From positions 1-55,734 of the forward strand of contig NJBI01000016.1 of NCBI GenBank assembly GCA_005222975.1: a DNA stretch of 55,734 nt, read 5' to 3'. The notes beneath the pieces were generated by a model, which was not told the DNA's origin, did no database searches, and saw only the letters and a program-made list of their open reading frames with translations. The stretch comes from Promethearchaeota archaeon Loki_b31. Its GTDB lineage: Archaea; Asgardarchaeota; Lokiarchaeia; Sigyniarchaeales; SOKP01. This document shows, piece by piece, positions 7,208 through 43,829 of this stretch (its first letter is position 1; each line of letters opens with the position of its first letter). The position numbers and the translations under genes were made by a program.

Positions 7208-8008
7208 TTAATAATAATTTATCTCTATTAAATCATTTTTGATTATTTCTTTAAAAATCTTTACGATCTCTTTTTTTCTCTTTTTATCAATTGCGTATAC
7301 AAAGTATTCTGAAGGTATTCTTGCGATTGAATATAATTGTACAATATCGGGTTTAATTTTTTTTATCGCATAAGCTAATTGCTCAATATTTTCTTTATTA
7401 TCATTGGAAATAAAATCTTCTCTGTAAGAATTATAAATTAAACATTGAATTGCTAATTTCTTATTTTGCATATCTTTTCTCAATTTAACAAGCGATTCAA
7501 CAATAGTGTTAACATCTGGACTATCTTTATGTGGTCTATTGGTGTTTGTAAAGTCGTTTTCAGTAGCGGCGTCTAATTTTGCTAATACAAGATCAAAGTG
7601 TTTTACTCTTTCTCGAACTTCGCTTGAATAAAGAGTACTTGAATTAGTAAAAAGCGTAATAAGAGGAGGTTCGTTGGTCCATTTCAAATCTCTTCTAACA
7701 TCTAAAGTAATAGAGTAAAAATCTAATAAATTTTCGTTGAGCGTAGGCTCACCTTGATATCCTGTAAAGCTTAAACTTTTTAAATGGGGGACATATTTTA
7801 ATATATCTTTAAGTTCTCTTCTAAAGTTAAACGACGGCGGAGCATTAATTCTATATTCTGGAGAAACTAAGTTTTCTTTATTTGTTGCGCCGATCTCACA
7901 ATAGACACAATCATAAGAACAAACTTTATAATTTAACAGTATATTTATTCCCAATGAGAGACCTAAGCGTCTTGACTGGAAAGGTCCATAGGTATATTTT
8001 CTAGGCAT
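7208..8008 (-). CDS. Radical SAM protein (COG0731-like Fe-S oxidoreductase)
   Basis: 266 residues. The N-terminus [18 protein letters not shown] leads into the radical SAM cluster motif CSYDCVYCE and then a glycine-containing SAM-binding strand (FTGYQGEPTLNE), with NRPH near residue 150. This matches the COG0731 group of small radical SAM enzymes related to the wyosine enzyme TYW1; the substrate is unknown. ATG at 8008. It lies 18 bases upstream of the ROK kinase reading frame. A second, truncated copy of its first 50 or so codons lies at 16718-16918 in the same orientation, so the two copies bracket the accessory island. Family assignment is firm, reaction not known. Confidence 0.85.
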   Translation of the reverse strand: MPRKYTYGPFQSRRLGLSLGINILLNYKVCSYDCVYCEIGATNKENLVSPEYRINAPPSFNFRRELKDILKYVPHLKSLSFTGYQGEPTLNENLLDFYSITLDVRRDLKWTNEPPLITLFTNSSTLYSSEVRERVKHFDLVLAKLDAATENDFTNTNRPHKDSPDVNTIVESLVKLRKDMQNKKLAIQCLIYNSYREDFISNDNKENIEQLAYAIKKIKPDIVQLYSIARIPSEYFVYAIDKKRKKEIVKIFKEIIKNDLIEINYY

Positions 8009-8198
8009 GGGATACGGATTTGCGAAATACTATTAATTAGATCAAACTATTTATCATAATCTATTTATCCTAAAAAATTTTGCTTGTAGGCAATATGAAT
8101 TTAGCTTTTTATATAACTCATCCATTTTCCGCCAAATACTGTTTTTTAAAATCGTTATATGTTTCAATCTCGAAGTGATCATCAAAAAATTGTCGAAT

Positions 8199-9503
8199 TT
8201 ATGAGGAATTCATTCCGAAAAAGAGTCTTTGACTAACTCTAGTATGATTATGAGCTGTGGACTTGCTCCAACCATACTTATGATAAATTGAGCTAAAAGA
8301 TTCATAACATTTAATTTCTTTAATTATAAGTGGTATAACTAATTCTTTTCTAGCTTCTTCCCATGTCGAAAAACCTAATTGATTATATATTTGTCTTTGT
8401 AAGGCATATCGGTAATAAGGTTTTTTATATTCATGTAAATATTTCTCAATTCTTAAATCATTAAGGGCTACGTTTTGTTTTAGGTACTTAATAATTAATT
8501 TTTTTAGAAGACTTGCTGGAATACTTAATTTTGTTACTCCTTCCCAACCATCAAGTTTTCCTATAACTGGTAAATTAAGAATGTTTTCTGTATCAACAAG
8601 ATATTTCAATTTTTGATATGATTTACCACCAAACAATGTTTCAATATATTTTCGAGTGAAACGATTAAAAACATTATTTATTTCATGAAGTTCAAAATGA
8701 TTTTTTAATAACAGATAAAAGACAGGTCTTAAAAATTTTATTTGAGCTTCTTCAAATGATCCCCAAAATTGATTAATTCTCCTTCTAACTGTAGACACAC
8801 TGCATACTATACCATGTTTTTTTAGTTTTCTTTGAATTTCAGTTTCCATATCGCCTAATGCTATATAATAAGCAATTGCTATCATTGGTAGATTCATTTT
8901 ACTCACCCCTCCTCCCCCTCCTGTATTTATATTAAGACCAGAACTTGTCAGATTATGTTCTGAAATGTAATCAATTTCTCCAGATCTTAAAGAATTTGAG
9001 GAAAAATGGATTTCTACAGGTGTTCTTGTAAATCTTGAATTTAATATACCAAAAATTAATCTCCAATTATAATTTTCATTGACTTTAAGATTCTCAAAAC
9101 CAACTTGATTTAATATGTTATAAATTAATCTATGGAGTTTCCCTCCTTCACCATGTTTAAAAACAGCTTTATAAACATAAGACATCCATCGAGAATTCAT
9201 CGTATCTGTTGTAAATCCCGCAATGGTTTCACCCTTAGATTTGTCAGATTTTATTTCAGTTATCTCATATACTAAACCATACCATAGATATTTCCCTCTT
9301 GAATTAACAATTCTTTCAAATTTGGAAATATCTTCAAAATCAGATCTTTTAAAACTAAACTCTCCGCTCAAGCGTAGTTGCTTAGGTTTAAATCCTAATT
9401 CCTTGAATGCCCTTAAAATCTCCTTTTTATAGCTCTCAGAAGTGATTTTTGCATATTTTCTAAGAAATTGTTTTCCAAATTTTAATTTCTGCGTTAGGCA
9501 CAT
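8199..9503 (-). CDS. GIY-YIG nuclease fused to tandem helix-turn-helix modules
   Basis: 434 residues. Residues 75-192 look like a divergent GIY-YIG nuclease: YGLVYEI, then TIAGFTTDTMNSRW (the YIG strand and conserved Arg105), the metal-binding glutamate Glu176 in SGEIDYISEHN, and the closing GLNIN. A glycine run (195-199) separates it from a C-terminal half of repeated HTH-like modules, each with a WGSFEEA or FSTWEEA element followed by a phenylalanine/leucine-proline helix. The layout resembles homing or mobile-element endonucleases whose HTH array reads DNA. A second protein of the same architecture is encoded at 41753-43312. Its start overlaps the end of the upstream small gene by 44 bases, so translation is probably coupled. 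It ends the overlapping four-gene operon 10142-8199. Confidence 0.65.
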   Translation of the reverse strand: MCLTQKLKFGKQFLRKYAKITSESYKKEILRAFKELGFKPKQLRLSGEFSFKRSDFEDISKFERIVNSRGKYLWYGLVYEITEIKSDKSKGETIAGFTTDTMNSRWMSYVYKAVFKHGEGGKLHRLIYNILNQVGFENLKVNENYNWRLIFGILNSRFTRTPVEIHFSSNSLRSGEIDYISEHNLTSSGLNINTGGGGGVSKMNLPMIAIAYYIALGDMETEIQRKLKKHGIVCSVSTVRRRINQFWGSFEEAQIKFLRPVFYLLLKNHFELHEINNVFNRFTRKYIETLFGGKSYQKLKYLVDTENILNLPVIGKLDGWEGVTKLSIPASLLKKLIIKYLKQNVALNDLRIEKYLHEYKKPYYRYALQRQIYNQLGFSTWEEARKELVIPLIIKEIKCYESFSSIYHKYGWSKSTAHNHTRVSQRLFFGMNSS

Positions 9504-9840
9504 TCATATCTTCTTTTTGTTCATTAGAATCTTCTTTTTCTGATCGTTCTTTGGGTTTATATTTGTCAAATTCTTCGATAATAAACTTTTGGATTTCTTT
9601 CAATAAGTTGGGATAAAAAAGGTTTAATTGTCTTAAAGTTTTTAACGATTTGAATAATCCACCACTTGAAGTTAATATTTTATGCGTGTTATCTTTGTCA
9701 ATTTCAGTTATTGGCAGATTATCTAAAAGAATTTTAGCTATATTCTTTTTATAGTCAAAATTAATTTCAAATCTATCAAAATCCTTTTCTAGTTCCTTTC
9801 CTATTTGATTAGGTATTTCTTTAATATCATTTTTTACCAT
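9460..9840 (-). CDS. Small acidic protein encoded with the GIY-YIG/HTH nuclease
   Basis: 126 residues from the ATG at 9840, chosen because a strong GGGGGA ribosome-binding site lies just upstream; an earlier ATG at 9873 would add 11 residues but has no such site. The protein is mostly helical and charged, with a lysine/glutamate-rich tail (about 105-120). No known domain was recognised. Its 3' end overlaps the nuclease gene by 44 bases and its 5' end overlaps the preceding RHH gene by 14 bases. By position it may be a partner or inhibitor of the nuclease; the second nuclease cassette also has an overlapping upstream partner gene (43260-43829), though the two partner sequences look unrelated by eye. 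Confidence 0.6.
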   Translation of the reverse strand: MVKNDIKEIPNQIGKELEKDFDRFEINFDYKKNIAKILLDNLPITEIDKDNTHKILTSSGGLFKSLKTLRQLNLFYPNLLKEIQKFIIEEFDKYKPKERSEKEDSNEQKEDMNVPNAEIKIWKTIS

Positions 9841-10012
9841 TATACTTCCCCCGATTTGAACTTGGGTTATCATATTTAATTCCTTTCGATTTAAAGTAAA
9901 AATCGATACATTTTCTTATATATGTCGCAATCGTTTCATTTGTATTGCATAAATCTTTAATCTTGTTAATCAGACTTAGCGATATTCTTACTCGGATCGT
10001 CACTTTTTCCAA
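9827..10012 (-). CDS. Ribbon-helix-helix (CopG/Arc-like) DNA-binding protein
   Basis: 61 residues. A short alternating beta strand (KVTIRVRIS) is followed by two helices (LINKIKDLCNTNETIATYIRKC), the pattern of a ribbon-helix-helix dimeric repressor. The start is TTG at 10012, 8 bases after GAGGG; there is no better start in frame. It overlaps the preceding RHH gene by 47 bases and the following gene by 14. In plasmids and integrated elements such proteins usually repress their own operon or control copy number; here it probably regulates the operon ending in the GIY-YIG/HTH nuclease. The target site is not identified. Confidence 0.65.
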   Translation of the reverse strand: MEKVTIRVRISLSLINKIKDLCNTNETIATYIRKCIDFYFKSKGIKYDNPSSNRGKYNGKK

Positions 10013-10142
10013 TTGTAATTCCCTCTTTTTCTAATTTTTCTTTAACTAGCTTGTGAATCCATTTAGAAATATTTAGACAGTGCTCCTCTGTGTATTTCCT
10101 TAGAGCTTCATCAATCTTTTCTTTTAAGTGTATTGCTGTCAT
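9966..10142 (-). CDS. Second small ribbon-helix-helix-like protein
   Basis: 58 residues, found by reading the minus strand directly. It starts MTAIHLKEKIDEALRKY, with a short strand and two amphipathic helices (ISKWIHKLVKEKL), resembling an RHH or antitoxin fold with a charged tail. ATG start with AAGGT about 8 bases upstream. It is the first gene of the overlapping operon 10142-8199 and shares 47 bases with the next RHH gene in another frame. Two tandem RHH-type genes at the head of an operon suggest regulation of the element. The RHH call is by pattern only. Confidence 0.5.
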   Translation of the reverse strand: MTAIHLKEKIDEALRKYTEEHCLNISKWIHKLVKEKLEKEGITIGKSDDPSKNIAKSD

Positions 10143-10730
10143 AATTTTAACCTTTTTGTTTATAGGAATAAAAATAATTTTTTTATCCTTACTATACTAT
10201 AGCAAGATTTTTGGATTTGGGTATATTTGTACTTTTTAAAACTTTTTTATCTCCAATAATATTACTAGGAGAATTATTATTTAAATCTTTACAATTCTAT
10301 CAATTTGACGATTAGAAAAGTATTTAATTATTAATCTGCTCGATGTTTTACAGGTTTTTGATGCAGGAAATTGTCGATAGGGAAATATGTGATAGATGCG
10401 TACTTTTGCATACTTTGTTTACAAAAAAATATATTTGTATATATTTCTCAATTGGGAAATAGGGAAATTTTAACAATTTAGTCAAAAACATGTCAAAAAG
10501 TCTAAAATTCGATTGCAAAAGAGTGGAATTAGTTAATCTTCTTCCTTTTTTATCGCGTTTTAAACGATTTTATCAAATCCCACTAAAAACCCATTATGAG
10601 TAGAGTTATAACTGAATTATATGTTATTATATACTTGGCTAACGTGTAAATTTTAATCACGTTCTATAAATTTAAATTAAAAACATATAAATAATAAAAA
10701 GAAAAAAATAAAAATCGAAATGAGGGAAAA
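10143..10730. other. Gene-poor intergenic region between divergent operons
   Basis: About 590 bases separate the minus-strand RHH operon from the plus-strand caspase-like gene. It is very AT-rich, with T- and A-runs. Only a 33-codon reading frame (10361-10462) is present and is not convincing. The right part contains an inverted repeat (10641-10663) and a TATA-like ACATATAAATAAT (10684-10696) about 40 bases before the caspase-like gene. No RNA gene was recognised. It probably holds both promoters and regulatory sites of the island. Confidence 0.5.
10641..10663. promoter_or_regulatory. Inverted repeat, possible operator upstream of the caspase-like gene
   Basis: AACGTG and CACGTT form perfect 6-base arms separated by 11 bases. 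The site lies about 20 bases upstream of a TATA-like element for the gene at 10731. It could be bound by one of the RHH proteins encoded across the same intergenic region. The symmetry is seen; the role is inferred. Confidence 0.3.
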
Positions 10731-11954
10731 ATGTATAATAAAAAATTAAGAATCTCAGTAATAATAATAATAAGTTTATTATTAGTAGGCACAAATATTG
10801 TTTCTATTGCAAACGCGGCCGTTCCAACTACATCTTCTTCTGACGTTTTATTTGTACAACTAGGGGATGATTCTATAATTGAAGAAACTACTCAAATAAT
10901 AATGGATAATCTAAATGACAGAAACGAACATTTGTTACAAGAACTTGAAAAACAGGAGATGGAAGAATATGTTGAAAAATTATACGGAATGATTGGTACA
11001 ACTTCTGATATTAATTTTGGTCAACTAAATATTATTGGTCCCCGTATTCTCGATATCAATGTGATTCAAATATCCGTTGAAAGCCTTGAAAATGGAATTC
11101 TGGAGAGTTATAAGACTCAAGTACTGATAATAATAGGGCATGGAAGTGAAGAAGGTCTCATAGGTGAAAATGATAAAATACTTTGGGACGATATTAAGAA
11201 AATAATTACAGATAATTCTGCGAAATATTCGATAATTGCATCCTGTTATAGTGAAAGAGCAACAAAAGATCTTCCGAATGCTATTGGTTTTCCGAATATC
11301 ATAGATGGAATTGTTGCAGCTAACATTGTTTCAGCAATACTTTTTAAAATGTTGGAAGAGACAACTTTAATGAAAAATTGTCTTAATAATGCACTTAAGC
11401 GCTATATGTATATCAGTATTAATCCTAAATCTGCTCAAATTTTGGAACTTGACCCTGGAGGTCCAGGTGGTGGTGGTGGTTCTCCTCCTCCTCCTTCAGG
11501 TCAGTACTTTAGTGATATGGAGATTGAATATTACATTATTGCATTTATAATTTTAATTTTTGCATCGACGATAAATGCAGTGATACCTGCAGACGCTTCT
11601 TGGGCAATAAAACTCTTTAGCGCTTTTAGTGTCATTGGAGTAGGGAGCTATATTTTTAATTTCGCTCTTTACGCAGCTGGTCTGATGACAGAGGCAGCCA
11701 TGTTGTCTAGTTTAGTGGGCTTTTTCAATGTGATGTTAGCGGCACTAATTAATCTTTTTTACATAGTAGATCCGTTTGAGCTAAGTTGTATGATCATTGT
11801 ATTTGGGGTGGGAGCACTTTTGACGATAATTGAACTTCTTGCATCAGGAGGTACTCTTGTAGTTGCAAAATTTTGTCTTATGGCAATAGCATTTGTTTCA
11901 TTAGGATTAGCTTGTTATTTTGATTGGTTGGATTCTGATGGCATTGTAGGTTAA
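10731..11954 (+). CDS. Secreted, membrane-anchored caspase-like (clan CD) protease-like protein
   Basis: 407 residues, not matched to a named family. Order of parts: signal peptide 1-29 (hydrophobic core, cleavage after ANA), a mixed alpha/beta domain about 38-230, a Gly/Pro linker at 242-257, then about five hydrophobic segments to the end. The soluble domain has the clan CD hallmarks: a hydrophobic strand before His-Gly (VLIIIGHGSEEG, His137) and a second strand before the putative nucleophile (YSIIASCYS, Cys172), 35 residues later. Caspases, gingipains, separases and CHAT proteins share this dyad arrangement. The topology puts the protease domain outside the membrane. ATG start with GAGGG 5 bases upstream. 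A polytopic membrane protein follows. Function unknown; regulated proteolysis or an element-encoded effector are both possible. Confidence 0.6.
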   Translation: MYNKKLRISVIIIISLLLVGTNIVSIANAAVPTTSSSDVLFVQLGDDSIIEETTQIIMDNLNDRNEHLLQELEKQEMEEYVEKLYGMIGTTSDINFGQLNIIGPRILDINVIQISVESLENGILESYKTQVLIIIGHGSEEGLIGENDKILWDDIKKIITDNSAKYSIIASCYSERATKDLPNAIGFPNIIDGIVAANIVSAILFKMLEETTLMKNCLNNALKRYMYISINPKSAQILELDPGGPGGGGGSPPPPSGQYFSDMEIEYYIIAFIILIFASTINAVIPADASWAIKLFSAFSVIGVGSYIFNFALYAAGLMTEAAMLSSLVGFFNVMLAALINLFYIVDPFELSCMIIVFGVGALLTIIELLASGGTLVVAKFCLMAIAFVSLGLACYFDWLDSDGIVG

Positions 11955-12135
11955 AATAATACTCTAACTATTTTTTTTTTCTAAAGTTTTATTACGAATT
12001 AATCTTAAAATAATCATAAAGGAGAGGATAATTATAAACAATAATTCTAAAAAAACTCAAGATTACTATATTGAGATAAAAAATAACATTAGTGTCTCGA
12101 AAAATGGTATAGTCGGAAAGATTTTTGTTGGAATT

Positions 12136-13143
12136 ATGTTTACATTTTTTCTAACCATTTTTTCAGTCACGGCATATTCAAATATCTTTTTTGCCGTTCC
12201 AACTTATGCTAAAATGTTAACTATACTTGGAACCGGATTTTTATTTGTAAATATTGTATTCGATAAAGCAGAAGCTATCTTATATTGGAAAGATCCGGGA
12301 AAAAGACCCGTGATTTTGAATATAAAGATGAAACAATCGTTCATTGAGACCATAGTTGTATTTTTTGTTAATTTTATTATTATTATACTTTCCCAATTTT
12401 TAGGATTATTAAATTTTATATATGAACGTGAAGGGATGAAATATTTTATTTCTTATTATCAACCACCCCTCTTTGAAACAGTATTAATTGCCATAATTAC
12501 AACTCTATCGTTTTTCGTCATATGGACATCTATGTATTGGTGTGTAAGTAGATTCCTTCAAATTAAAAATTATTCACACGATTTCAAAAAATTTGATATA
12601 AAAAGATTAGGTATTTTTTTTGGTGGAATGATTTTATTAATAATTTTTTGGGTTGTTCTTTATATACCGGATATGTTATATAAAGAGGTTAAAGTGAATG
12701 GGGACTTCAGTGGTATATTATTTTTTAAAGAATTTGCTCAAAAAGATTATCTTAGGATATTGACGGCGGAGATATTTATTCTTATTGGCTTAAATCTATT
12801 ATTCTATTTTCTAGGTGATAAAAATTTGAGCGAAAGAGATGATTTTGTTCTATTGGAGAAGGAAAACAGTGAGATTAAAAGTAAAAAAGAAAAATACCAA
12901 AAAAGAGCGATCGAAAAACGTTTTATAATAGCAATGTTTGAAATTATAATAGTAACGCTAATTTTTATGCCTTTATTTTTTATATTCGCGTTATTCTATT
13001 CAACAATTGGATCTATTTTAATTTCCGTTCCCTATTTTCTTATGTTAGGAACTATAATTGTCGTATTTATTTTATATGGCGCTATACTGACTGGGAGGAT
13101 TTCGATAATTAAATCAAAATCGAGACAAAGTATCGAAAGTTAA
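12136..13143 (+). CDS. Polytopic membrane protein of unknown function
   Basis: 335 residues from the first ATG, with about seven hydrophobic helices and a charged cytoplasmic loop (about 225-260, lysine/glutamate-rich). No family recognised. The frame is open for another 34 codons upstream: a very strong GGAGAGG ribosome-binding site (12021-12027) is followed 6 bases later by an in-frame ATA at 12034, which would add a polar N-terminal segment (NNNSKKTQDYY...) and begin the first membrane helix cleanly. The ATG itself has no ribosome-binding site. The true start is thus probably about 12034, at a non-standard codon. It lies about 80 bases after the caspase-like gene and may be co-expressed with it. 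Confidence 0.6.
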   Translation: MFTFFLTIFSVTAYSNIFFAVPTYAKMLTILGTGFLFVNIVFDKAEAILYWKDPGKRPVILNIKMKQSFIETIVVFFVNFIIIILSQFLGLLNFIYEREGMKYFISYYQPPLFETVLIAIITTLSFFVIWTSMYWCVSRFLQIKNYSHDFKKFDIKRLGIFFGGMILLIIFWVVLYIPDMLYKEVKVNGDFSGILFFKEFAQKDYLRILTAEIFILIGLNLLFYFLGDKNLSERDDFVLLEKENSEIKSKKEKYQKRAIEKRFIIAMFEIIIVTLIFMPLFFIFALFYSTIGSILISVPYFLMLGTIIVVFILYGAILTGRISIIKSKSRQSIES

Positions 13144-13267
13144 ATGCAATAAATCAAAGAATTTTAGAAGTAATCTTTTTTTTCTAACTCTATAAATCAT
13201 TAAATCGTTAAAACCAACAAGTACATATAACGTGTCAAATTTTAAACAATTCAAAAACTTTAAACAT

Positions 13268-13346
13268 GGGGGAGGATTAAAACGATACGTTCAGGAATGA
13301 TTGCCATCTGATGTATGTGTCAACCTAATCCTTTCCCACCTTTTTT
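13268..13346 (+). terminator. Long-loop hairpin followed by T-run
   Basis: A 12-base stem (13268-13279 with 13326-13337, two G-U pairs) closes a loop of about 46 bases and is followed by six Ts (13341-13346). Two similar arrangements lie at 14038-14117 and 14550-14630. It could be a terminator for the membrane-protein gene or the 3' end of a small structured RNA. Confidence 0.4.
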
Positions 13347-13410
13347 AAATTACAAATATTCGAACGTTTAAAAGAAAAAATTAAAGATTTTGATAAGGAG
13401 ATTTAAGAAA

Positions 13411-13626
13411 ATGTTAGAATGTATCTTATGTGGGAAAATAATCGTTCAAAACGATAATCCTAAGCATTATAGCGTTTGTTCTAAGTGCGACGTAAACGAT
13501 TTAACCGAAGAACAAAAGAAATTCATAGAAATGGGAATAAATTACATAAAGTTAGGAAAAATCGTTAAAACAAAAAGCAATTCGCGATCTTTGCAATTTA
13601 CTCGACGATCTATATTTTTACGCTAA
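13411..13626 (+). CDS. Small zinc-ribbon protein, apparently frameshifted
   Basis: The intact frame gives 71 residues from the ATG at 13411, chosen because AAGGAG lies about 10 bases upstream; the frame's earlier TTG at 13390 precedes that site. CILCGK and CSKCDV form a zinc ribbon in the first 30 residues. The last 16 residues look non-coding. Shifting frame by one base at the A5 run near 13570 restores a plausible helical tail (AIRDLCNLLDDLYFYAKEL...) to a stop at 13715-13717. That tail ends KEKLKEEIETKINEL, nearly the same as the end of the small protein at 14145-14297. So a homopolymer error, a real mutation or programmed slippage is likely. Confidence 0.55.
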   Translation: MLECILCGKIIVQNDNPKHYSVCSKCDVNDLTEEQKKFIEMGINYIKLGKIVKTKSNSRSLQFTRRSIFLR

Positions 13627-13756
13627 GGAATTAATCCCAAAGAATATGAAACATAACTTGAGTTTTAGAAAAGAAAAATTGAAAGAAGAAATCGAAACAA
13701 AAATAAATGAATTGTAAGAAATTAATCGAAATTACAAATAAGGAGTGATTAAGAAA

Positions 13757-14029
13757 ATGAAAATAAATTTTTACAAGTACATGTTAATGACGATGGCTTT
13801 TCTCTTAGGTTTCCACTTGTATTACGTTGTTCAATACGAAGCCATATTTTTAAGATACATAAGTGAAAATCGTGATGAGCTCGTATATATAACGCTAATG
13901 AGACTAGAAATGAGTTTCCAACACATAATAACTTTTATGTTCTGTGTGGCATTACTCGTTATAGCTATCGTCTTGTACCTTGCAGAGTTTTACGCTTGTA
14001 AGTACATTAAAAGCAAGAGGGCAGTTTAA
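13757..14029 (+). CDS. Small two-helix membrane protein
   Basis: 90 residues from the ATG at 13757, preceded by AAGGAG at 10-11 bases spacing; the GTG at 13745 overlaps that site and is rejected. Two hydrophobic helices (about 8-27 and 58-80) flank a charged loop, and the tail is basic. No family recognised. Its leader (AAGGAG, then TTAAGAAA, then ATG) closely matches those of the genes at 13411 and 14326, suggesting a shared origin or translation signal for this set of small genes. Confidence 0.5.
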   Translation: MKINFYKYMLMTMAFLLGFHLYYVVQYEAIFLRYISENRDELVYITLMRLEMSFQHIITFMFCVALLVIAIVLYLAEFYACKYIKSKRAV

Positions 14030-14037
14030 ACTAATAT

Positions 14038-14117
14038 GGGGATTTTGAGAAGGGATAGGGTTTGATTCTCTCAGCCCCCAACATGGTTATCTACTTCTTA
14101 AAAATCCCCTCTTTTTT
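14038..14117 (+). terminator. Long-loop hairpin followed by T-run
   Basis: GGGGATTTTGAGAAG (14038-14052) pairs with 14094-14109 (ends AAAATCCCC), closing about 41 bases, followed by CTTTTTT. A nested GAGAA/TTCTC pairing is possible. It sits just after the small membrane-protein gene. Either a terminator with an unusually long loop or a small RNA. Confidence 0.45.
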
Positions 14118-14144
14118 AAATTAAAAAAATGAGCGTGATAAAAA

Positions 14145-14297
14145 ATGAAAAAACTAAAGTTTGATAAAAAAGGGTTTCTAATACTTCAAAAATTAAATTA
14201 TGAAATACAACACAACGATAGAACCAAAGATTTAATTGATAATATTAAAAAAGAAAAACTGAAAGGGGAAATCGAAACTAAAATAATGAAATTGTAA
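14145..14297 (+). CDS. Small charged helical protein
   Basis: 50 residues, lysine-rich, predicted helical, starting MKKLKFDKKGFL and ending KEKLKGEIETKIMKL. The ending is almost the same as the out-of-frame tail of the zinc-ribbon gene at 13411-13717, which supports both being real coding sequence. ATG at 14145; the ribosome-binding site is weak. Function unknown. It lies between two long-loop hairpins and 16 bases upstream of the next small gene. Confidence 0.45.
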   Translation: MKKLKFDKKGFLILQKLNYEIQHNDRTKDLIDNIKKEKLKGEIETKIMKL

Positions 14298-14325
14298 ACA
14301 ACAAATAAAGGACATGATAAAAGAA

Positions 14326-14508
14326 ATGAAATACTGCATAAATTGTAAGCTAATAGTACAACCTAAAAAGGATTTTAATTTATGTGCTTTTCTTTTTCTT
14401 GCTTTGTTGGGTAGTTTTTGGATATATATAATATATTATGTTTTGAAGTCTAAGAAATGTCCTATATGTAATAGCACTAATTGGGGGGGCAATTATTTAA
14501 ATCTCTAA
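14326..14508 (+). CDS. Small zinc-ribbon protein with a membrane segment
   Basis: 60 residues from the ATG at 14326. CINCKL and CPICNS form a split zinc ribbon around a central hydrophobic stretch (about 20-42), so the zinc knot would sit at the membrane surface. The ATG at 14314 is only 2 bases from AAGGAC; the later ATG has the same spacing as two neighbouring genes with the same leader. No named family recognised; similar small ribbon-plus-membrane proteins are common in archaea. Confidence 0.5.
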   Translation: MKYCINCKLIVQPKKDFNLCAFLFLALLGSFWIYIIYYVLKSKKCPICNSTNWGGNYLNL

Positions 14509-14549
14509 TCAGTTCGATTAGAAAGAATAACGCTAACCCTTTTATTCTC

Positions 14550-14630
14550 GGAGATGCGAGCACTCATTTATGTCTTTTGAAACTTTTACCCTCTCTAACC
14601 CTTTCATTTCTCGCATCTCCACACTTTTTA
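14550..14630 (+). terminator. Perfect 11-base stem with long loop and T-rich tail
   Basis: GGAGATGCGAG (14550-14560) pairs perfectly with CTCGCATCTCC (14610-14620) across a 49-base loop, then ACACTTTTTATTTTT. It follows the zinc-ribbon membrane gene. Third of three such elements within 1.4 kb. Confidence 0.45.
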
Positions 14631-14674
14631 TTTTTACGTTCATTTTAATTAATCTAATGTTAGATGTGTAAAAA

Positions 14675-14809
14675 ATGCCATATAATTGGAAAATAGAATC
14701 TCAAGAACTAAGAAAAGAAAAAAATCGTTTGTTAGATAAGTTAAAAGAGTTAAAACGATCTTATGAGAAATTTAAAAAGGAATTCGAAACAATATTAAAT
14801 AAAAAGTGA
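14675..14809 (+). CDS. Tiny coiled-coil protein
   Basis: 44 residues (MPYNWKIESQELRKEKNRLL...), lysine/glutamate-rich with leucines at heptad-like spacing, so a single coiled-coil helix. Similar in composition to the 50-residue protein at 14145. ATG start, no clear ribosome-binding site. Could be a regulator or capsid-scaffold-like peptide of the element; no evidence for any role. Confidence 0.35.
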   Translation: MPYNWKIESQELRKEKNRLLDKLKELKRSYEKFKKEFETILNKK

Positions 14810-14952
14810 AAAACGTTCAAATTTGCTAAAATGGATTCTATGGGTATTTTATTGATAAAATTATAAATTGTCGGTAAAAATACGGCAGTTTAATTATAAT
14901 AAATATTTCACAAAGTATTTAAAGAAAAAATGAAAAATTTCTTTACTAGAAT

Positions 14953-15045
14953 TTAAAGAAACAAGGGAAGGCAAGTTGTAAATCCCGCTATTAATCCCGT
15001 TACGATGCCAGTAATTAGATAGATTATTGATTTTTTTGTATTCAT
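14953..15045 (-). CDS. Possible 30-residue single-pass membrane peptide
   Basis: MNTKKSIIYLITGIVTGLIA and ten more residues: a basic N-terminus and one hydrophobic helix. It begins 3 bases after the stop codon of the membrane-protein gene at 15049-15579, with AAGGA directly before the ATG. The tight coupling favours a real gene, but the size makes it uncertain. Confidence 0.3.
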   Translation of the reverse strand: MNTKKSIIYLITGIVTGLIAGFTTCLPLFL

Positions 15046-15048
15046 TCC

Positions 15049-15579
15049 TTACTTATTAATTATCTGCCATAGACTTATTGTAATCGTCAAGAGAGCTAGA
15101 AACGAGAAAATACCCATTCCATAGTATGTAGTTTTCTCGTAAGGATACACTGTCTTACTTATATCCGAAATGCTATTCGTAGCAAATGGATCGATTATAC
15201 CTGAAAGAGAGATAAAATTAAAAATGAGTCGATCTGGTAGTGGGTCTAAAACGACAAGCAAGAAGTATGTGAACCAATCGAGCAGAATTCCAAACGCAAA
15301 GACTATGTATGATGACCCCAGAATCATGCGAGGCTTTGTCATAGGATTGTCTCCTAATTTTTGTTCCTTGCTGTATCTTATTCTTTCTAAAAAGTATTTA
15401 CCTCTTAAACTTAATAAGGTTAAAATCCCGATAATTAAGAGTATCGCAAAAAAGATGTATTTAATATACCCAAAAAACAATTCAATAAATGAATTAATCT
15501 CGATAAACAGACCGTCAAGGTTGGGTAAAAATGGGTCAATTATACTTAAAAATTTTACACGAAAAAGATAGGTGATCAT
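15049..15579 (-). CDS. Four-helix membrane protein of unknown function
   Basis: 176 residues with about four hydrophobic helices (about 36-58, 85-108, 115-133, 152-172) and no recognisable motif. It probably shares a transcript with the upstream membrane gene at 15624-15962, 44 bases away on the same strand. Together with the island's other membrane proteins it gives the region a strikingly high share of hydrophobic gene products. Exact function unknown. Confidence 0.5.
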   Translation of the reverse strand: MITYLFRVKFLSIIDPFLPNLDGLFIEINSFIELFFGYIKYIFFAILLIIGILTLLSLRGKYFLERIRYSKEQKLGDNPMTKPRMILGSSYIVFAFGILLDWFTYFLLVVLDPLPDRLIFNFISLSGIIDPFATNSISDISKTVYPYEKTTYYGMGIFSFLALLTITISLWQIINK

Positions 15580-15623
15580 CTATATTACCTTTAAAATCAC
15601 CTATTTAAATTCTACAGATTAAC

Positions 15624-15962
15624 TTATTTTTTCACTGCAAGATCTTTTCTCGAACTTATGTTTTCCTTAGTAATTATGAATTCATATATTCCAGCAGATA
15701 CGCCTAGAAGTAGAACATATATATTGCTTAGAATTATGTTAAATACTGGAACATCAAAAATATCTATAAATAGATACGGAATAGAATCTAGAATAAAAAC
15801 AGTGATACTTGATATCAAAAGAAATCTACTAACTATAACCCATGTTGAGACTTTGCGATTTCTATGACGAAAGATTAAGACAACAATATTTAAAATATAC
15901 AATCCTATTAACCAACCAAGAAAAACTAGATAAAAGAGCTCTGAATCTAAATAACCAATCAT
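15624..15962 (-). CDS. Three-helix membrane protein of unknown function
   Basis: 112 residues with three hydrophobic helices (about 7-32, 43-68, 74-95) and a lysine-rich C-terminus (SSRKDLAVKK). ATG at 15962. First gene of a probable two- or three-gene minus-strand unit with 15049-15579. No conserved motif recognised. Confidence 0.5.
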   Translation of the reverse strand: MIGYLDSELFYLVFLGWLIGLYILNIVVLIFRHRNRKVSTWVIVSRFLLISSITVFILDSIPYLFIDIFDVPVFNIILSNIYVLLLGVSAGIYEFIITKENISSRKDLAVKK

Positions 15963-16099
15963 TATATTATTACTGAGAAAAAGTCATATAAACTCCTAAC
16001 TTTTTAATCTAAGATTTAAAAAAAAAAATTTAAGAGACATATTTATCTAATGTTTCTAAAGTTTTCACAGCTATACTTGATGAGATCTTAGTCATTACA

Positions 16100-16375
16100 A
16101 TGATACCCTTAACTGAAGATCCTGAAAAATGCATAATTTTAGGATTATTCAATAACATAATAGGAAAAGGGGTATATTTTGAAAGCAGTTTGATATGGTT
16201 GGATAAATGTATAGATCAAAAACGCAACGAATTTGATGATTTTACAAGGGAACCAGCTCTAACTTATGGAAATAGTACAGATCAGTACTTTAACACTTAT
16301 TTGATGATTATGTTTAAAATAATCTCTATCCAAAAGATTTCAGTAGATCACCCTGTATTAGGTAAACTAACCTAA
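16100..16375 (+). CDS. Unknown small protein, possibly a gene fragment
   Basis: 91 residues (MIPLTEDPEKCIILGLFNNI...) with no recognised family. The frame is open for about 22 further codons upstream (ETYLSNVSKVFTAILDEILV...) without a standard start, and that part also looks protein-like, so the gene may be 5'-truncated or use a non-standard start. It is followed by a clearly broken methyltransferase remnant, so decay in this area is plausible. Confidence 0.35.
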   Translation: MIPLTEDPEKCIILGLFNNIIGKGVYFESSLIWLDKCIDQKRNEFDDFTREPALTYGNSTDQYFNTYLMIMFKIISIQKISVDHPVLGKLT

Positions 16376-16521
16376 TTGAGATTAATCATGTTTAATGAGA
16401 TATTAATAAATAAGAATAAAACAAACAAAAATTGTTATTAATCTAATTTTAGTAATAAAGATAAATTAATTTGTATTAAGAAAATTAATCCAAGAATAGA
16501 TAAGAAAAAAGATGAAATTTC

Positions 16522-16763
16522 ATGTCTAAAAAGACGGAAAGTTATGTACATAAAGAAAAAAAGCGTAAAAATAACCCTGAAGTAGGATTATCAGTATATG
16601 ATAAAGAATTCCCAAGAAAATCCAAATATGATATGATCCGTATTTAGATCCTCAATTAATTTGGACAAATAAATCAGAGAAAACTTCATTCGAAGTTCCA
16701 ATTGTATCACTATTAACTCAAGAAAAAATTAATCCAAAACAAATAATTACCAACACGATATAG
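16522..16763 (+). pseudogene. Remnant of a type III-like (Mod) adenine DNA methyltransferase N-terminus
   Basis: Two reading frames joined at about 16625 give KKRKNNPEVGLSVYDKE, then YDPYLDPQLIWTNK, then [20 protein letters not shown]. This is the characteristic N-terminal segment of Mod-type DNA methyltransferases (NNPEVGL, YDPHLDPQL, TSFEV...SLHVHE) as I know the family. A one-base frameshift breaks it, and it stops at TAG 16761-16763, exactly where homology to the radical SAM gene begins on the other strand. No methyltransferase catalytic motif follows. It is therefore the stub of a gene cut by deletion or recombination. Confidence 0.6.
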
Positions 16764-16918
16764 ATTCTATATTCTGGGGAAACTACTTCTTTAGTAGGGC
16801 CTATTTCACAATATACGCAATTGTAGGTGCATAATTTATTTTTTGGTAGAATATCTATTCCTAACGAGAGCCCTAGCCGTCTTGATCGAAATGGACCATA
16901 AGTGTATTGACGTGGCAT
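16718..16918 (-). pseudogene. Truncated copy of the radical SAM (COG0731-like) gene
   Basis: The first about 53 codons, from ATG 16918, match the start of the intact gene at 7208-8008: [15 protein letters not shown], the cluster motif CTYNCVYCE and SPEYRI are shared, with scattered substitutions. Homology stops at about 16764, after which the frame runs through unrelated bases to a stop. The SAM-binding and substrate parts are missing, so it cannot be active. It has the same orientation as the full copy, with the accessory island between them. The sequence divergence argues against a fresh exact duplication. Confidence 0.8.
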
Positions 16919-16928
16919 GTGATTATTC

Positions 16929-17693
16929 TTAATTAAAATAATTAATGATAAAATTCTCTATCGATTTATTGACCTCACTTGGTTTTTCTAACATAACCAT
17001 GTGTCCAGCATCGTTTATTATGTTTAAATCTGAATTCTTAATTTTATCGAGAAAAAATTGCGAAAATTTAACCGGCGTCATCTTATCTTGTTTCCCTACG
17101 ATAATTAGGCATGGAACTTCAATACTATCTGTTTTATCTATGGTATCAAAGTTATCGCAAATTTTAAAATCTTCATATGTGACTTCTGCCGTAATTTTCG
17201 AAGTTTCTTGAACATAATTATCTATTAATTCTCTTGGTGTTTTTCTATAGAATATCCCATCGGGTAAAGAGTCTAAAAACTCTTGGTAATTGGATCTTAA
17301 AGAGTTTAGGATAATTGGGGCAACTCTTAACCTTCCCCCGGTGCCACATAAAATTAAACCTGAGATTTCTTTAGGGTATGTAAAATAATATTGTTGAGTA
17401 ATAGCTCCTCCCAAAGAATGTCCACATAATATTACATTGTCATAGTTTAAAGATTTAATTAGGTGCCGAATTACATCGACATACAAATCGAGATTTAGCT
17501 CCGAAAATTCATTTGAATTGTTATGGGAAGGTAAATCGATAGCGATAAGATCGTAATTAACTTCAAGATCGAATTGATTTTTCCAAGTATTTGAACTTCC
17601 TCCTGAGCCGTGTATAAAAATAATTACATTTTTACTTTCGGTTTCTTTAATCCGATAAAAGATCTTCTTCTCTTTATAACTCAAGAAAGGCAT
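16929..17693 (-). CDS. Alpha/beta-fold hydrolase
   Basis: 254 residues, a typical single-domain alpha/beta hydrolase. Oxyanion-loop [13 protein letters not shown], nucleophile elbow GHSLGGA, acid loop GKQDKMTP and the final histidine in [11 protein letters not shown] are all in place, so the Ser-Asp-His triad is complete. The fold covers esterases, lipases, dehalogenases and C-C hydrolases; this one cannot be assigned a substrate. ATG at 17693. Only 10 bases separate it from the truncated radical SAM copy, so it marks where the ordinary chromosome resumes after the island. Confidence 0.88.
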
Positions 17694-25215: not shown

Positions 25216-26697
25216 GTGAGAAAATTGGAAGAAAATGAAAAGCCTTTAACACCCGAAGAAATTGAAGCCCAAAAGAAGGTTGTTGAAGATCTATATAAAA
25301 AAGAAAAGGAAGAAAGAGAAATCTACTTAAAGAGTTTCGAGGTAGAACGGAAAGCTGCTTTTGAAGAGAGTAAAGAAATGATTTCTGCCTTGATATCCGA
25401 GAAAAGTTTCATGAGAGAAAAACAAAGAGAACGAGATTTAGAAAGAATGGAACTAAAACTTGACATTGAACAAACTGGTGAAGCTATCGAAAAAGCCATC
25501 GGAGAAAAAGCATTTATGAGAGAAAAACAAAGAGAAGCAGATTTTAAAAGGACAGACCTAAAGCCTGACTTTAGAGGTATTAGTGAAGTAATAAGTAAAA
25601 ACGTCGATGATAAAGCGTTTTTAATTGAAAAGAAAAGGGAAACTGATATCCAACGATTAAAAATAAAACCTGATATGGAAAGCACAAGGGAAGCAATTAG
25701 TAAAAGTATTAATGAAAAAGCTTTTATGATTGAAAAAAAGAAAGAGAGCGATTCGCGTCGGTTAGAATTAAAACCTGATATAGAAAAAACAGGAGAAGCA
25801 ATCTCTCATTCAATAGGTGAAAAAGCTTTTTTACGAGAAAAACAAAGAGAACGAGATTTTGAAAGAATGGAGCTAAAACCAGACTTTATGAAAACGGGAG
25901 AAGCAATAAGTAAAACCGTGGCGGAAAAAGCGTTTAGAAGAGATAAACAACGCGAAATGGATCAGAGAATGTTAAATTTACAACCCAAAATTATTGAAAA
26001 AAGCGAAGCTATTAAGGAGTCTATTGACGAAAAAGCTTTTATGATTGAAAAAAAGAAAGAGAGCGATTCGCGTCGATTAGAAATAAAACCTGATATAGAA
26101 AAAACAGGAGAAACAATCTCTAAATCAATAGGTGAAAAAGCGTTTTTACGAGAAAAACAAAGAGAACGAGATTTTGAAAGAATGGAGCTAAAACCAGACT
26201 TTATGAAAACGGGAGAAGCAATAAGTAAAACCGTGGAGGAAAAAGCGTTTAGGATCGATAAACGGCGCGAAATTTACGATAAACAAAAAGAATTAAAACC
26301 TGATTTTTGGACAACTTCGGAAATAATTAATAAATCGATACAAGAAAAAGCCTTTTTGCGTGAAAAACAACGCGAAGACGATCTCAGAAGGATGGAACTT
26401 AAACCTGATTTGGAAAAAGTAAGTCAAGCTATTAAATCTTCAATTGATGAGAAAGCGTTTAGAATTGAAAAACAAAAAGAAATAGATCAAAGAAGAATAA
26501 ATATTAAACCTAACTTTGAAAAATCTAGCGAAGCAATCGAAAAAATCATTGAAGAAAAAGCATTTGTTAGAGAAAAACAAAGAGAACGAGATTTAGAAAG
26601 AATGGAGCTTAAGCCCGATATAAAAGGTATTAGCTCTAAAATTGAAAGCGAAATTGAAAAAATCGAACAAAAGAAAAAGGATGAAGATCTTACTTAA
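25216..26697 (+). CDS. Protein of twelve 35-residue charged helical repeats
   Basis: 493 residues. After a lysine/glutamate-rich leader (1-60), a 35-residue unit recurs 12 times to about residue 475. Each unit has an EKAF core, then REKQRERDFERMELKPD, then a softer helix (GEAISKSIG). The EKAF, arginine/glutamate-rich block and KPD are near-invariant. The unit is five heptads long and each KPD proline would start a new helix, so a long rod of jointed helices or a coiled coil is likely. No membrane or signal segment: cytoplasmic. GTG start; a TATA-like element about 28 bases upstream suggests a leaderless transcript. Function unknown; a scaffold or filament is the natural guess. Confidence 0.75.
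   Translation: MRKLEENEKPLTPEEIEAQKKVVEDLYKKEKEEREIYLKSFEVERKAAFEESKEMISALISEKSFMREKQRERDLERMELKLDIEQTGEAIEKAIGEKAFMREKQREADFKRTDLKPDFRGISEVISKNVDDKAFLIEKKRETDIQRLKIKPDMESTREAISKSINEKAFMIEKKKESDSRRLELKPDIEKTGEAISHSIGEKAFLREKQRERDFERMELKPDFMKTGEAISKTVAEKAFRRDKQREMDQRMLNLQPKIIEKSEAIKESIDEKAFMIEKKKESDSRRLEIKPDIEKTGETISKSIGEKAFLREKQRERDFERMELKPDFMKTGEAISKTVEEKAFRIDKRREIYDKQKELKPDFWTTSEIINKSIQEKAFLREKQREDDLRRMELKPDLEKVSQAIKSSIDEKAFRIEKQKEIDQRRINIKPNFEKSSEAIEKIIEEKAFVREKQRERDLERMELKPDIKGISSKIESEIEKIEQKKKDEDLT
25402..26640 (+). repeat. In-gene tandem repeat, 105-base period, 12 copies
   Basis: The coding repeat has a 105-base period. A three-unit block (about 25714-25940) recurs almost base-for-base 315 bases later (about 26029-26255), including shared synonymous codons, which points to a recent in-frame segmental duplication. 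Other units are more diverged. Confidence 0.85.
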
Positions 26698-41752: not shown

Positions 41753-43312
41753 TTAATCCAAAAAATCGTTGACTTCATGAAATCCGAGGTAATTGGTTGC
41801 AAAGAAAATTTTAGCATCTTCAAAAATATTAAAATTCCATTTTCGTTTAAAATAACGAGCAGTAAATCCTTTACGACCAAGCATTAGATCAATTTTAGTA
41901 TGTGGTGTATTTCTTCTTATTAAGTTTTCAATAATAGGTTCCAAAAAGATGTCTCTCATTGCGTCCCACGACTTACCCGTACCTGTATCCCATAATCGGT
42001 TCTTAAGCATCCTGAATAACGAATCTTTGTCGTATAAGGCTCCTTCTGCTCTTGGGTTAGCAATACTCATTGCTTCGAACACTTCAATAGCTTCATACAT
42101 CTGAAAACCACTTTGCAAGAGAGAAATAACTATTGGTTTAATGAAAAATCTTTCGTAAGCTATTGAAGGATCCATTTTTAGATAATCATTTGTCCACTGG
42201 TAAATAGCACTCAAGGAATAAGATTTTTCAGAGATAGTCCCACTTATAAATTGTTCATGAGCTTTTTTAATATCTTTGAAAGCGGTGGCCTTATAATCTT
42301 CATCAAATTTTACAAATTTTTTAGCAATTTCGTGAGCCATCAACCCTTGACTATAATACTCTATAAGTTTTTTAGTCCGTAAGTAAGTAGAGACTTCTTT
42401 ATATCCCACATTACTTCCAAATTGATCGGAATACCATGTTTTTAGCCTATTAAGAATAGTTGACGTCGTAACACCGTATCTCACAGCAATATCGAGCATT
42501 TCATACCCCCTCTCGATTAAGTGATTTACATCATCAAAAAAGATTCCTTTAATATATCCAGAATGCTCATCACCTTTTAAAGAAGTCAAATCCCCGACAT
42601 GTTTATTATAATCCAAATTAATAGATAAATCAAAACCATATTTTGACTTTGCATCTCTATTGAAAGAAATAGTAAAGAAATCTTCGCTTATAATTGCGTT
42701 TTTTCGCCCTATTTGAACATCGAGAATTATCATTTTAAAACTTTCAATACCTTGTAATTTTATATCTTCATATAAAGGAAAACCTTCATATTTTTTCAAT
42801 TTTGAATCTTTCTGATATAATTTAGCTCTTATTTGCGGAAGGTTTTTAGTCATTCCTATTCTTATACCATCTTCAGGTCTCTCCTTATTAACGAATGCGT
42901 ATATAATATATGGTATTTCTTCAACTTTAGTAGCTTTTTTCGAAAGATCTCTATACTTATGAAGAAGTTTATCTTGAGTATTAGGATATTTTCTTGCGTT
43001 ATTGATGTTTAAACTTTTTACGCCTACGGAATTACTAAGATCTAAAGATTTGAATTTTTCAGAATAAACATTGTTGAAATGCTGCTTATAAAACTCAAAG
43101 AACTCAAAATACGACAACTTATCAATTATTCTTTTATTAAAAAAAACACTTAGATTATTGTAAGTGAGATTTTTATATTTCTGAGAGAAATTTGCAAAGA
43201 AACGGCAAAGAAGTTGATTAACGCGCGTTTTATTTGAGAAATTGTCAGAGTTTTTATCATTAAAATAACGTGTGATAGCCCTTATCTTCGTGAATAACGA
43301 AGATATTTTCAT
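41753..43312 (-). CDS. GIY-YIG nuclease with tandem helix-turn-helix modules (second cassette)
   Basis: 519 residues. A helical N-terminal 130 residues, then a GIY-YIG domain (about 134-240): IPYIIYAFVN, RIGMTKNLPQIRAKL (Arg162), the glutamate Glu210 in ISEDFFTISF, and GFDLSIN. The C-terminal half has several HTH-like units (MLDIAVRYGVTTSTILNRL; HEIAKKFVKF; modules with KSWDAMRDIFLEPII), as in the protein at 8199-9503. The GIY-YIG core is diverged, so activity should not be assumed. Its ATG overlaps the end of the upstream gene by 53 bases. Both cassettes lie next to normal chromosomal genes, consistent with a mobile or selfish unit. Confidence 0.6.
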   Translation of the reverse strand: MKISSLFTKIRAITRYFNDKNSDNFSNKTRVNQLLCRFFANFSQKYKNLTYNNLSVFFNKRIIDKLSYFEFFEFYKQHFNNVYSEKFKSLDLSNSVGVKSLNINNARKYPNTQDKLLHKYRDLSKKATKVEEIPYIIYAFVNKERPEDGIRIGMTKNLPQIRAKLYQKDSKLKKYEGFPLYEDIKLQGIESFKMIILDVQIGRKNAIISEDFFTISFNRDAKSKYGFDLSINLDYNKHVGDLTSLKGDEHSGYIKGIFFDDVNHLIERGYEMLDIAVRYGVTTSTILNRLKTWYSDQFGSNVGYKEVSTYLRTKKLIEYYSQGLMAHEIAKKFVKFDEDYKATAFKDIKKAHEQFISGTISEKSYSLSAIYQWTNDYLKMDPSIAYERFFIKPIVISLLQSGFQMYEAIEVFEAMSIANPRAEGALYDKDSLFRMLKNRLWDTGTGKSWDAMRDIFLEPIIENLIRRNTPHTKIDLMLGRKGFTARYFKRKWNFNIFEDAKIFFATNYLGFHEVNDFLD

Positions 43313-43829
43313 GAATACTTAGTATAATCGCAGATAAAACTTCTGCTTGAATTTCCATTCGAAGTGGATTATAAATTTTTTTAAATACGGGTTCTACAGG
43401 TTTTAATTCTGTAAGTGTTCGTATAATGGTAAATGTCAACATTGACAACATATCTTTTGTATCATGTAAAGTTATAGGAGTATTATAATAATCATAATCA
43501 ACAATTTTTTCTTCAAATTTAGTGAAAGTATCGTAATTCTTTAGCCTTCCTATTAAATTTACTATATTATCAGCAAAATACCTAATAAATACATCAATCA
43601 TTTTCACTTCTGTCTGTAGAGGATCTCCGTTAGGTATTAAAACCTTTTTTTGGATATAAGATTTTTCGTGATAAAATTCATAAAAAAACATAATTACTAA
43701 ATCATATATTTTTTCTTGCGGACAAAATTGTTCCAATCGATAAAATTCTCCATCATGTCTATTGATCATAGAAACCTTTAAAATCTTGTTAGCTTTTTCG
43801 GCAATTTCAGAATTAAGATAGATTTTCAA
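43260..43829 (-). CDS. Unknown partner protein of the second GIY-YIG/HTH cassette
   Basis: 189 residues, mostly helical, rich in aromatic residues and lysine. No recognised motif. ATG at 43829. Its 3' end overlaps the nuclease gene by 53 bases, so the two are almost surely co-translated. The analogous gene in the first cassette (9460-9840) is shorter and not obviously related. A DNA-binding or specificity subunit is one possibility; no direct evidence. Confidence 0.55.
   Translation of the reverse strand: MKIYLNSEIAEKANKILKVSMINRHDGEFYRLEQFCPQEKIYDLVIMFFYEFYHEKSYIQKKVLIPNGDPLQTEVKMIDVFIRYFADNIVNLIGRLKNYDTFTKFEEKIVDYDYYNTPITLHDTKDMLSMLTFTIIRTLTELKPVEPVFKKIYNPLRMEIQAEVLSAIILSIHENIFVIHEDKGYHTLF

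Follow-up and report, generated by a model that had tools for sequence, protein, structure and literature searches.

Polymorphic toxin systems, in the available part of their description by Zhang et al. (2012; PMC3482391), place caspase-like peptidases just upstream of a variable C-terminal toxin domain, which the peptidase is thought to release. Makarova et al. (2021; PMC8416519, available part) hypothesize that the VARTIG modules of Thermococcales serve in conflict, innate immunity or self-recognition. Here, we compare with these systems two adjacent genes, A and B, of Promethearchaeota archaeon Loki_b31, which lie in a 55,734-nucleotide stretch of DNA (contig NJBI01000016.1, positions 1 to 55,734, forward strand; hereafter "the window"). 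An earlier note on this DNA, made from the sequence alone, knew of no described system with the architecture of the pair. We found no prior account of the pair itself in the literature searched, which was partially covered, but close analogues are in print (PMC3482391 and PMC8416519, as far as their available parts describe them).

We tentatively read A and B as a polymorphic-toxin-like module for conflict or self-recognition, in which a predicted Sec-exported, membrane-anchored peptidase of the caspase-haemoglobinase fold carries a membrane domain apparently diversified by recombination. We give this reading somewhat less than an even chance and favor it because A shares the polymorphic-toxin layout, with a peptidase just upstream of a variable C-terminal part, and a membrane partner. 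The pair would be an unusual case, with an exposed part that stays nearly the same between close relatives and a shuffled membrane part, a pattern that would fit a weapon-and-immunity or a self-recognition system. Little is known about how Asgard archaea fight, recognize kin or die. A predicted outside protease of the caspase fold with a diversified membrane partner, moved between genera, would be a testable conflict or self-recognition system in the lineage closest to eukaryotes.

Results

Genes A (10731-11954; 407 amino acids) and B (12136-13143; 335 amino acids counted from the first ATG) are co-directed and lie where the earlier note had placed two open reading frames (ORFs). The features it had named, a signal peptide, His-Gly and Ala-Ser-Cys motifs, a linker, about five C-terminal helices and a second multi-helix protein, can all be seen in the sequence. 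The features of the pair are as follows.

10722-10726, plus strand: Shine-Dalgarno-like GAGGG of gene A (sequence)
10731-11954, plus strand: gene A, with signal peptide, caspase-like ectodomain, Gly/Pro linker and five membrane helices
10731-10817, plus strand: signal peptide of A, residues 1-29 (hydrophobicity scan and sequence)
10827-11450, plus strand: ectodomain of A, residues 33-240, modeled alone (structure model)
11139-11141, plus strand: His137 of A, predicted catalytic residue where the third core strand ends (model and conservation)
11244-11246, plus strand: Cys172 of A, predicted nucleophile, after the fourth core strand (model and conservation)
11304-11306, plus strand: Asp192 of A, invariant in 56 of 56 sequences (alignment)
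11448-11504, plus strand: Gly/Pro linker of A, residues 240-258, where identity drops (pairwise comparisons)
11535-11912, plus strand: diversified membrane domain of A, five helices, residues 269-394 (comparisons and hydrophobicity scan)
11913-11951, plus strand: C-terminal tail of A; a similar VG or AG tail ends 28 of 52 distinct collected relatives, and the rest end otherwise
12034-13143, plus strand: gene B, polytopic membrane partner, with first ATG at 12136 and probable start at 12031-12034
12868-13140, plus strand: two-helix C-terminal extension of B, a separate ORF of 71 to 88 amino acids in six congeners

The signal sequence of A is hydrophobic at residues 8-26, followed by A-N-A at 27-29. 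His137 lies within IIIGHGSEEG and Cys172 within IIASCYSE, the Gly/Pro linker reads DPGGPGGGGGSPPPP, and the protein ends in DWLDSDGIVG. A Kyte-Doolittle scan marks five membrane segments (269-287, 295-313, 328-346, 353-371 and 376-394) and also residues 190-208, a helix within the modeled ectodomain. B has six core membrane segments and two in its extension, and its alternate loops are rich in Lys/Arg (4, 6, 6 and 11 versus 0, 2 and 5), in keeping with an N-in protein. As the first ATG of B falls within the first membrane helix and the frame is open upstream to 12034, behind a GGAGAGG at 12021-12027, B probably starts at a nonstandard codon near 12031-12034 or has lost its start in the window allele.

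The structure model of the ectodomain contains the clan CD core fold (strands b1 to b4 and helices a1 to a3). Model residues 105 and 140, that is, His137 and Cys172, sit at the ends of b3 and b4, where the clan CD rule places the dyad (PMC4357240, available part). Both residues are invariant in 23/23 sequences of our alignment A3 and in all 55 sequences spanning both sites, from a set of 56 that covers part of the genome matches, includes near-duplicates and holds one fragment lacking the two sites. The top structural match is a SAVED-CHAT protease. Together, the model and the structural comparison bear out the clan CD-like fold proposed in the earlier note, which had allowed that the fold might prove to be of another kind or the dyad not conserved; neither turned out to be the case. 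The model supports A as a predicted peptidase of the clan CD-like (caspase-haemoglobinase) fold, and the signal peptide suggests that its ectodomain faces outward. Peptidase families were matched weakly: Peptidase_C25 at a best E of 0.0089 (15.7 bits against a cut-off of 23; 2/23 members), Peptidase_C13 at E 0.0013 (1/23; also below its cut-off) and T9SS sortase at E 0.17 (1/23). Peptidase_C14 (PF00656) matched neither A nor the scanned members, and CHAT was absent from the Pfam hits, though the top structural match is a CHAT protein.

The two halves of A appear to have different histories. Between the window and a relative from a different genus (L005), protein identity over ectodomain residues 112-239 is 93% and DNA identity 97%, at a synonymous divergence (dS) of 0.04. 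The membrane half is 52% identical with a dS of 0.53, identity returning in the final residues. B is itself mosaic: its codons 41-80 match at 98% DNA identity, and other parts have diverged. DNA homology is confined to 10668-12997, and the flanks differ. The ectodomain probably moved recently between these genomes, since a Cdc48-like protein (identified by eye; our single yardstick) is just 77% identical between them. The ratios of nonsynonymous to synonymous divergence (dN/dS) are 0.87 for the ectodomain and 0.77 for the membrane half, and this pair therefore shows exchange, not selection.

Similar mosaics were found among public relatives. The ectodomains of P0002 and P0011 are 97% identical and their membrane halves 50%, and P0006 joins a P0008-type ectodomain (94%) to a membrane half nearest that of P0001 (77%, versus 56% to P0008). 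In a second subfamily, the values for P0013 and P0018 are 89% and 53%. Paralogues within one genome, G113, behave likewise, with ectodomain, membrane-half and B identities of 93%, 65% and 75% for C4/C22 and of 94%, 48% and 65% for C30a/C30b. Likelihood tests on two groups of 10 sequences reject the membrane tree for the ectodomain data and the reverse (all four P < 0.001). Identity falls after the catalytic Cys in 15 of 18 hand-chosen pairs. In group 1 (nine pairs), the drop lies at 229-243 in five and at 214, 262 and 269 in three, with P0001/P0006 reversed; in group 2 (seven pairs), it lies at 125-160 in five, one further pair being reversed and another flat; the drop is also present in both G113 pairs. 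Recombination has apparently diversified the membrane half and B. Across 11 A-B pairs, divergence of B follows that of the membrane half once the ectodomain is accounted for (partial r = 0.55), but it follows the ectodomain equally well (see Discussion), so that cognate covariation is at most suggested. As in polymorphic toxins, a protein with an export signal joins a constant N-terminal part to a recombining C-terminal part, here on metagenome assemblies, from which most family members come. The earlier interpretation holds for fold, dyad, pairing and island but was incomplete, as a near-constant ectodomain with a recombining membrane half and partner is invisible from one sequence.

Close relatives of A number 11 among public proteins. 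Of 227 genomes, 66 contain matches at E ≤ 0.01, which include mere tails and fragments; beyond the phylum, relatives were sought by word-limited protein searches and genome, viral, plasmid and phage scans only. Five named loci carry A relatives: Candidatus Lokiarchaeia ABR06, Candidatus Prometheoarchaeum CSMAG_2396, a Lokiarchaeota, a Heimdallarchaeota and a Hodarchaeota. Searching with a B profile recovers copies in 15/227 genomes (E ≤ 0.001), and a single-sequence search finds 19, short matches to the C-terminal extension included. The profile tally is 28 copies plus two contig-edge fragments (G012 and G113:C39). Half of the copies (14/28) have A directly upstream on the same strand; three of these A genes are interrupted (G114, G116:C108 and G113:C20), and two run off the contig end (G117 and G113:C30). 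Another copy lies with A fragments, one with a divergent A, two with an A tail only, and two are a second B behind an A-B pair, so that 20/28 copies belong to an A cluster. The pairing proposed in the earlier note therefore recurs in other genomes of the phylum. The remainder comprise one copy beside a secreted Peptidase_C14 caspase (G080), six with no such neighbor and one at a contig end; seven copies are without A. In Prometheoarchaeum, another kind of multi-helix protein, unmatched by the B profile, comes after A.

The locus in G080 (G080:C166; L044) has a secreted caspase at 120-1226 (Peptidase_C14, E 3.5e-11, with a bacterial immunoglobulin [Ig] domain) directly upstream of B at 1357-2223, in place of A. 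Peptidase_C14 is a separate family in these genomes, with at least 54/227 over the cut-off (a lower bound, as that search missed the G080 protein) and none in the window's genome. Distant A relatives of Heimdallarchaeota, Hodarchaeota and G100 (L008, L009 and L038) are long proteins, L009 with TSP3-type repeats and L038 fused to an alpha/beta hydrolase. The solitary counterpart of the B extension (G002, G004, G016, G011, G010 and G006; L135 to L140) sits between aminotransferase-like and D-3-phosphoglycerate dehydrogenase-like genes (by eye).

The surroundings of the pair add the following features.

8014-16763, no strand: island carrying the A-B pair; the flanking genes abut directly in two congeners
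10547-10714, plus strand: promoter-like upstream region of A (putative role), with stretches 81 to 85% identical upstream of other genes in other genomes
16764-16918, minus strand: leftover 155-bp 5' end of a second radical SAM-like gene copy at the right island border, 93.5% identical to G022

The island spans about 8.7 kb between a radical SAM-like gene (7208-8008) and an alpha/beta hydrolase-like gene (16929-17693), both identified by eye. Contigs G022:C82 and G012:C17 align to the window until 8013 and resume at 16764 (G022) or 16800 (G012), with the two flanking genes 10 bp apart; a third genome compared at this site, G006, was uninformative. In the full left-border copy, the stretch corresponding to the 155-bp remnant is just 69% identical to G022. 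Judged from these alignments, the pair sits on an inserted island, because the flanking genes abut in G022 and G012 and a radical SAM-like remnant marks the right border. The element carriage suggested in the earlier note agrees with this, the flanks being contiguous in both congeners.

Rearranged copies occur elsewhere. G113:C30 is a tandem A-B-A-B, and G097 has A-B, then an A copy without most of its catalytic part, then a split B (outside the 28 copies). At a second site in the window's genome (G000:C75:70417-71977; L104), near an actin-like gene (by eye), an A tail and a full B stand without an ectodomain. The congener G012 (L133), with the same neighbor gene as C75 (92% in DNA), holds at a contig end the beginning of a B gene that matches the window copy at 93% identity and the C75 copy at only 75%.

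Other parts of the window also have counterparts. Those of 10547-10714 lie upstream of a secreted rhodanese-like gene (L149 and L152; by eye) and of a membrane-protein gene (L151), and the region may be a shared promoter block or a recombination point. Stretches 13250-13359 and 13372-13547, which include a truncated zinc-finger-like protein, are 91% and 97% identical to contigs C14 and C81 of the same genome; these matches mark the fragments at 13250-13547, downstream of B, as repeat debris. On the island, a segment of a membrane protein (14950-15828) is 85% identical to a stretch of G022:C27 (L164:4125-5005) beside a Rab-like GTPase gene (by eye). Similarly arranged cassettes at 8199-10012, on the island, and at 41753-43829 encode GIY-YIG-like proteins (by eye) with a small gene upstream and are possible selfish nuclease cassettes; a weak T5orf172 match (E 0.0032) concerns only the cassette at 41753-43829. 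At 25216-26697, a 493-amino-acid ORF consists mostly of a 35-residue repeat (EKAFxREKQRE...RMELKPD), with EKAF every 35 residues.

Discussion

Under the conflict or self-recognition reading, the ectodomain would lie outside the cell, and the His137/Cys172 dyad would act as a trigger or releasing peptidase, by analogy with the caspase-like peptidases of polymorphic toxins. On firing, the peptidase would cut the Gly/Pro linker or a neighboring protein, and the cut would free or rearrange the hydrophobic C-terminal domain, which might then insert into or permeabilize a membrane. B would be the cognate partner, restraining this domain as an immunity protein or reading its identity. This scheme builds on what is observed: a predicted fold with an invariant dyad, the linkage of A and B, mosaic genes in the available assemblies, B copies lacking A, A tails that have no ectodomain, and the island. 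Outward orientation, catalysis, self-cleavage, membrane damage, immunity through B and the purpose of the whole are what we infer. A more specific version, which we find doubtful, would be a polymorphic, horizontally mobile surface system of Asgard archaea in which one caspase-like protease, shuffled membrane effectors and matching guardians form a protease-gated, allele-specific device for killing or self-recognition. Caspase-gated pore systems and vertebrate-style diversification would be its analogues, except that its variable part would lie within the membrane.

Several observations weigh against the conflict or self-recognition reading. A Foldseek search by itself found nothing at E ≤ 0.001 and placed flavodoxin-like folds and other unrelated chains ahead of legumain. 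No known toxin domain was recognized in A by Pfam, NCBIfam or PADLOC; PADLOC had no match to either window protein and weak matches in 2/23 relatives only (BovA, E 0.0051; HEC-01A, E 0.059). The variable halves of A are allelic forms within a single family, unlike the assorted toxin domains of classical systems. For the window and L005, neither strong constraint on the ectodomain nor positive selection on the membrane half is seen, and the near-identity of the ectodomains may only reflect recent exchange. Three of the 18 chosen pairs show no drop, P0013/P0016 run the opposite way (ectodomain 78%, membrane half 86%), and assembly chimeras at near-identical ectodomains could mimic swapping. Divergence of B in the same 11 pairs also follows the ectodomain, about as closely as it does the membrane half, when the latter is accounted for (partial r = 0.53), and specific covariation with the membrane half is thus suggested only. 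Full-architecture A genes without an adjacent B exist (L014 and L020), many distant A relatives have other architectures, and P0006 and P0008 have no linker.

A rival reading is a surface-anchored protease in ordinary work, such as protein scavenging or surface-protein processing, with B as a stabilizing or assembly subunit and a membrane half that tolerates change. The dyad kept in relatives and the membrane-half dN/dS below 1 agree with this explanation, as do the extracellular gingipain- or clostripain-type peptidases mentioned, in the available part of the literature, for sediment microbes. These peptidases have also been linked to Asgard archaea. We nonetheless consider it unlikely: relaxed constraint should not lift synonymous divergence tenfold within one gene or yield conflicting trees, and a housekeeping gene would seldom be patchily distributed, carried on an island and accompanied by remnants. 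Alternatively, the mosaicism itself might be an assembly artefact, with near-identical ectodomains letting assemblers join the wrong membrane halves; the members are mostly metagenome assemblies, and several B fragments end at contig ends (G006:C258 and G012:C5). However, G113:C30 holds two copies on one contig with the divergence described above, which argues against an artefact as the whole explanation, and the pattern recurs in three subfamilies and in most chosen pairs; an artefact is thus highly improbable.

The top structural match raises an antiviral role, as the SAVED-CHAT protease belongs to type III CRISPR defense. An outside or membrane signal of infection would then activate the protease, leading to cell death or an entry block as in abortive infection, and the membrane half and B would diversify to escape viral inhibitors. 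Island carriage, patchy distribution and the weak PADLOC matches in relatives could be accommodated, but no sensor domain was found, PADLOC matched none of five island proteins scanned, B included (small island ORFs lay outside the scan), and the protease is predicted to be exported, not cytosolic, so that we regard this role as quite unlikely. GPI8/PIG-K and PorU are clan CD transamidases, and a comparable sortase- or transamidase-like maturation machine could attach or release surface proteins, B being its membrane subunit and the VG tail a sorting signal. This would account for a clan CD domain that has a signal peptide, is predicted to lie outside and is tethered to the membrane. The VG-type tail in 28/52 distinct relatives and the weak Peptidase_C13, Peptidase_C25 and T9SS sortase matches point the same way. 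Yet all three matches are below cut-offs, and a dedicated machine should not need allele swapping, which leaves such a machine very unlikely.

Set beside known systems, A resembles GPI8/PIG-K, legumain (C13) and gingipain/PorU (C25) in its predicted exported clan CD domain and in weak profile matches, but it differs in that all these matches fall below cut-offs. None of them is known to have a polytopic diversified membrane domain. With the CHAT peptidases (SAVED-CHAT and TPR-CHAT), A shares its best structural match and the His-Cys dyad. Known CHAT peptidases are cytosolic and tied to CRISPR or other sensors, whereas A has a signal peptide and membrane helices and no Pfam sequence match to them. 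A also has the predicted fold of caspases and metacaspases (Peptidase_C14), and in G080 a true C14 protein adjoins the B gene, but A lacks a C14 profile match.

The likeness to bacterial polymorphic toxin systems, as far as the available part of PMC3482391 describes them, extends to a Sec signal, a caspase-like peptidase just upstream of a variable C-terminal domain, a neighboring partner gene, copies of the partner and tail cassettes that occur apart from the full gene, and variation apparently produced by recombination. Unlike in those systems, the variable part of A is one alignable multi-helix membrane family rather than unrelated enzyme toxins, no repeats or known trafficking domain were found in A, and a toxic role would follow by analogy. 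Membership of A-B in VARTIG was considered and rejected, as VARTIG is built on a large protein with several Ig domains (arCOG07710) and Pfam finds no Ig domain in A. VARTIG is nevertheless the nearest analogue among archaea. In the available part of PMC8416519, it too combines a secreted protein whose C-terminal region recombines with downstream genes for membrane proteins in the same direction, and its distribution is patchy, with exchange from strain to strain. What varies in VARTIG is the immunoglobulin domain, and no clan CD peptidase is described for it in that part of the account; in A, of a different lineage, the outside part is constant and the membrane part varies.
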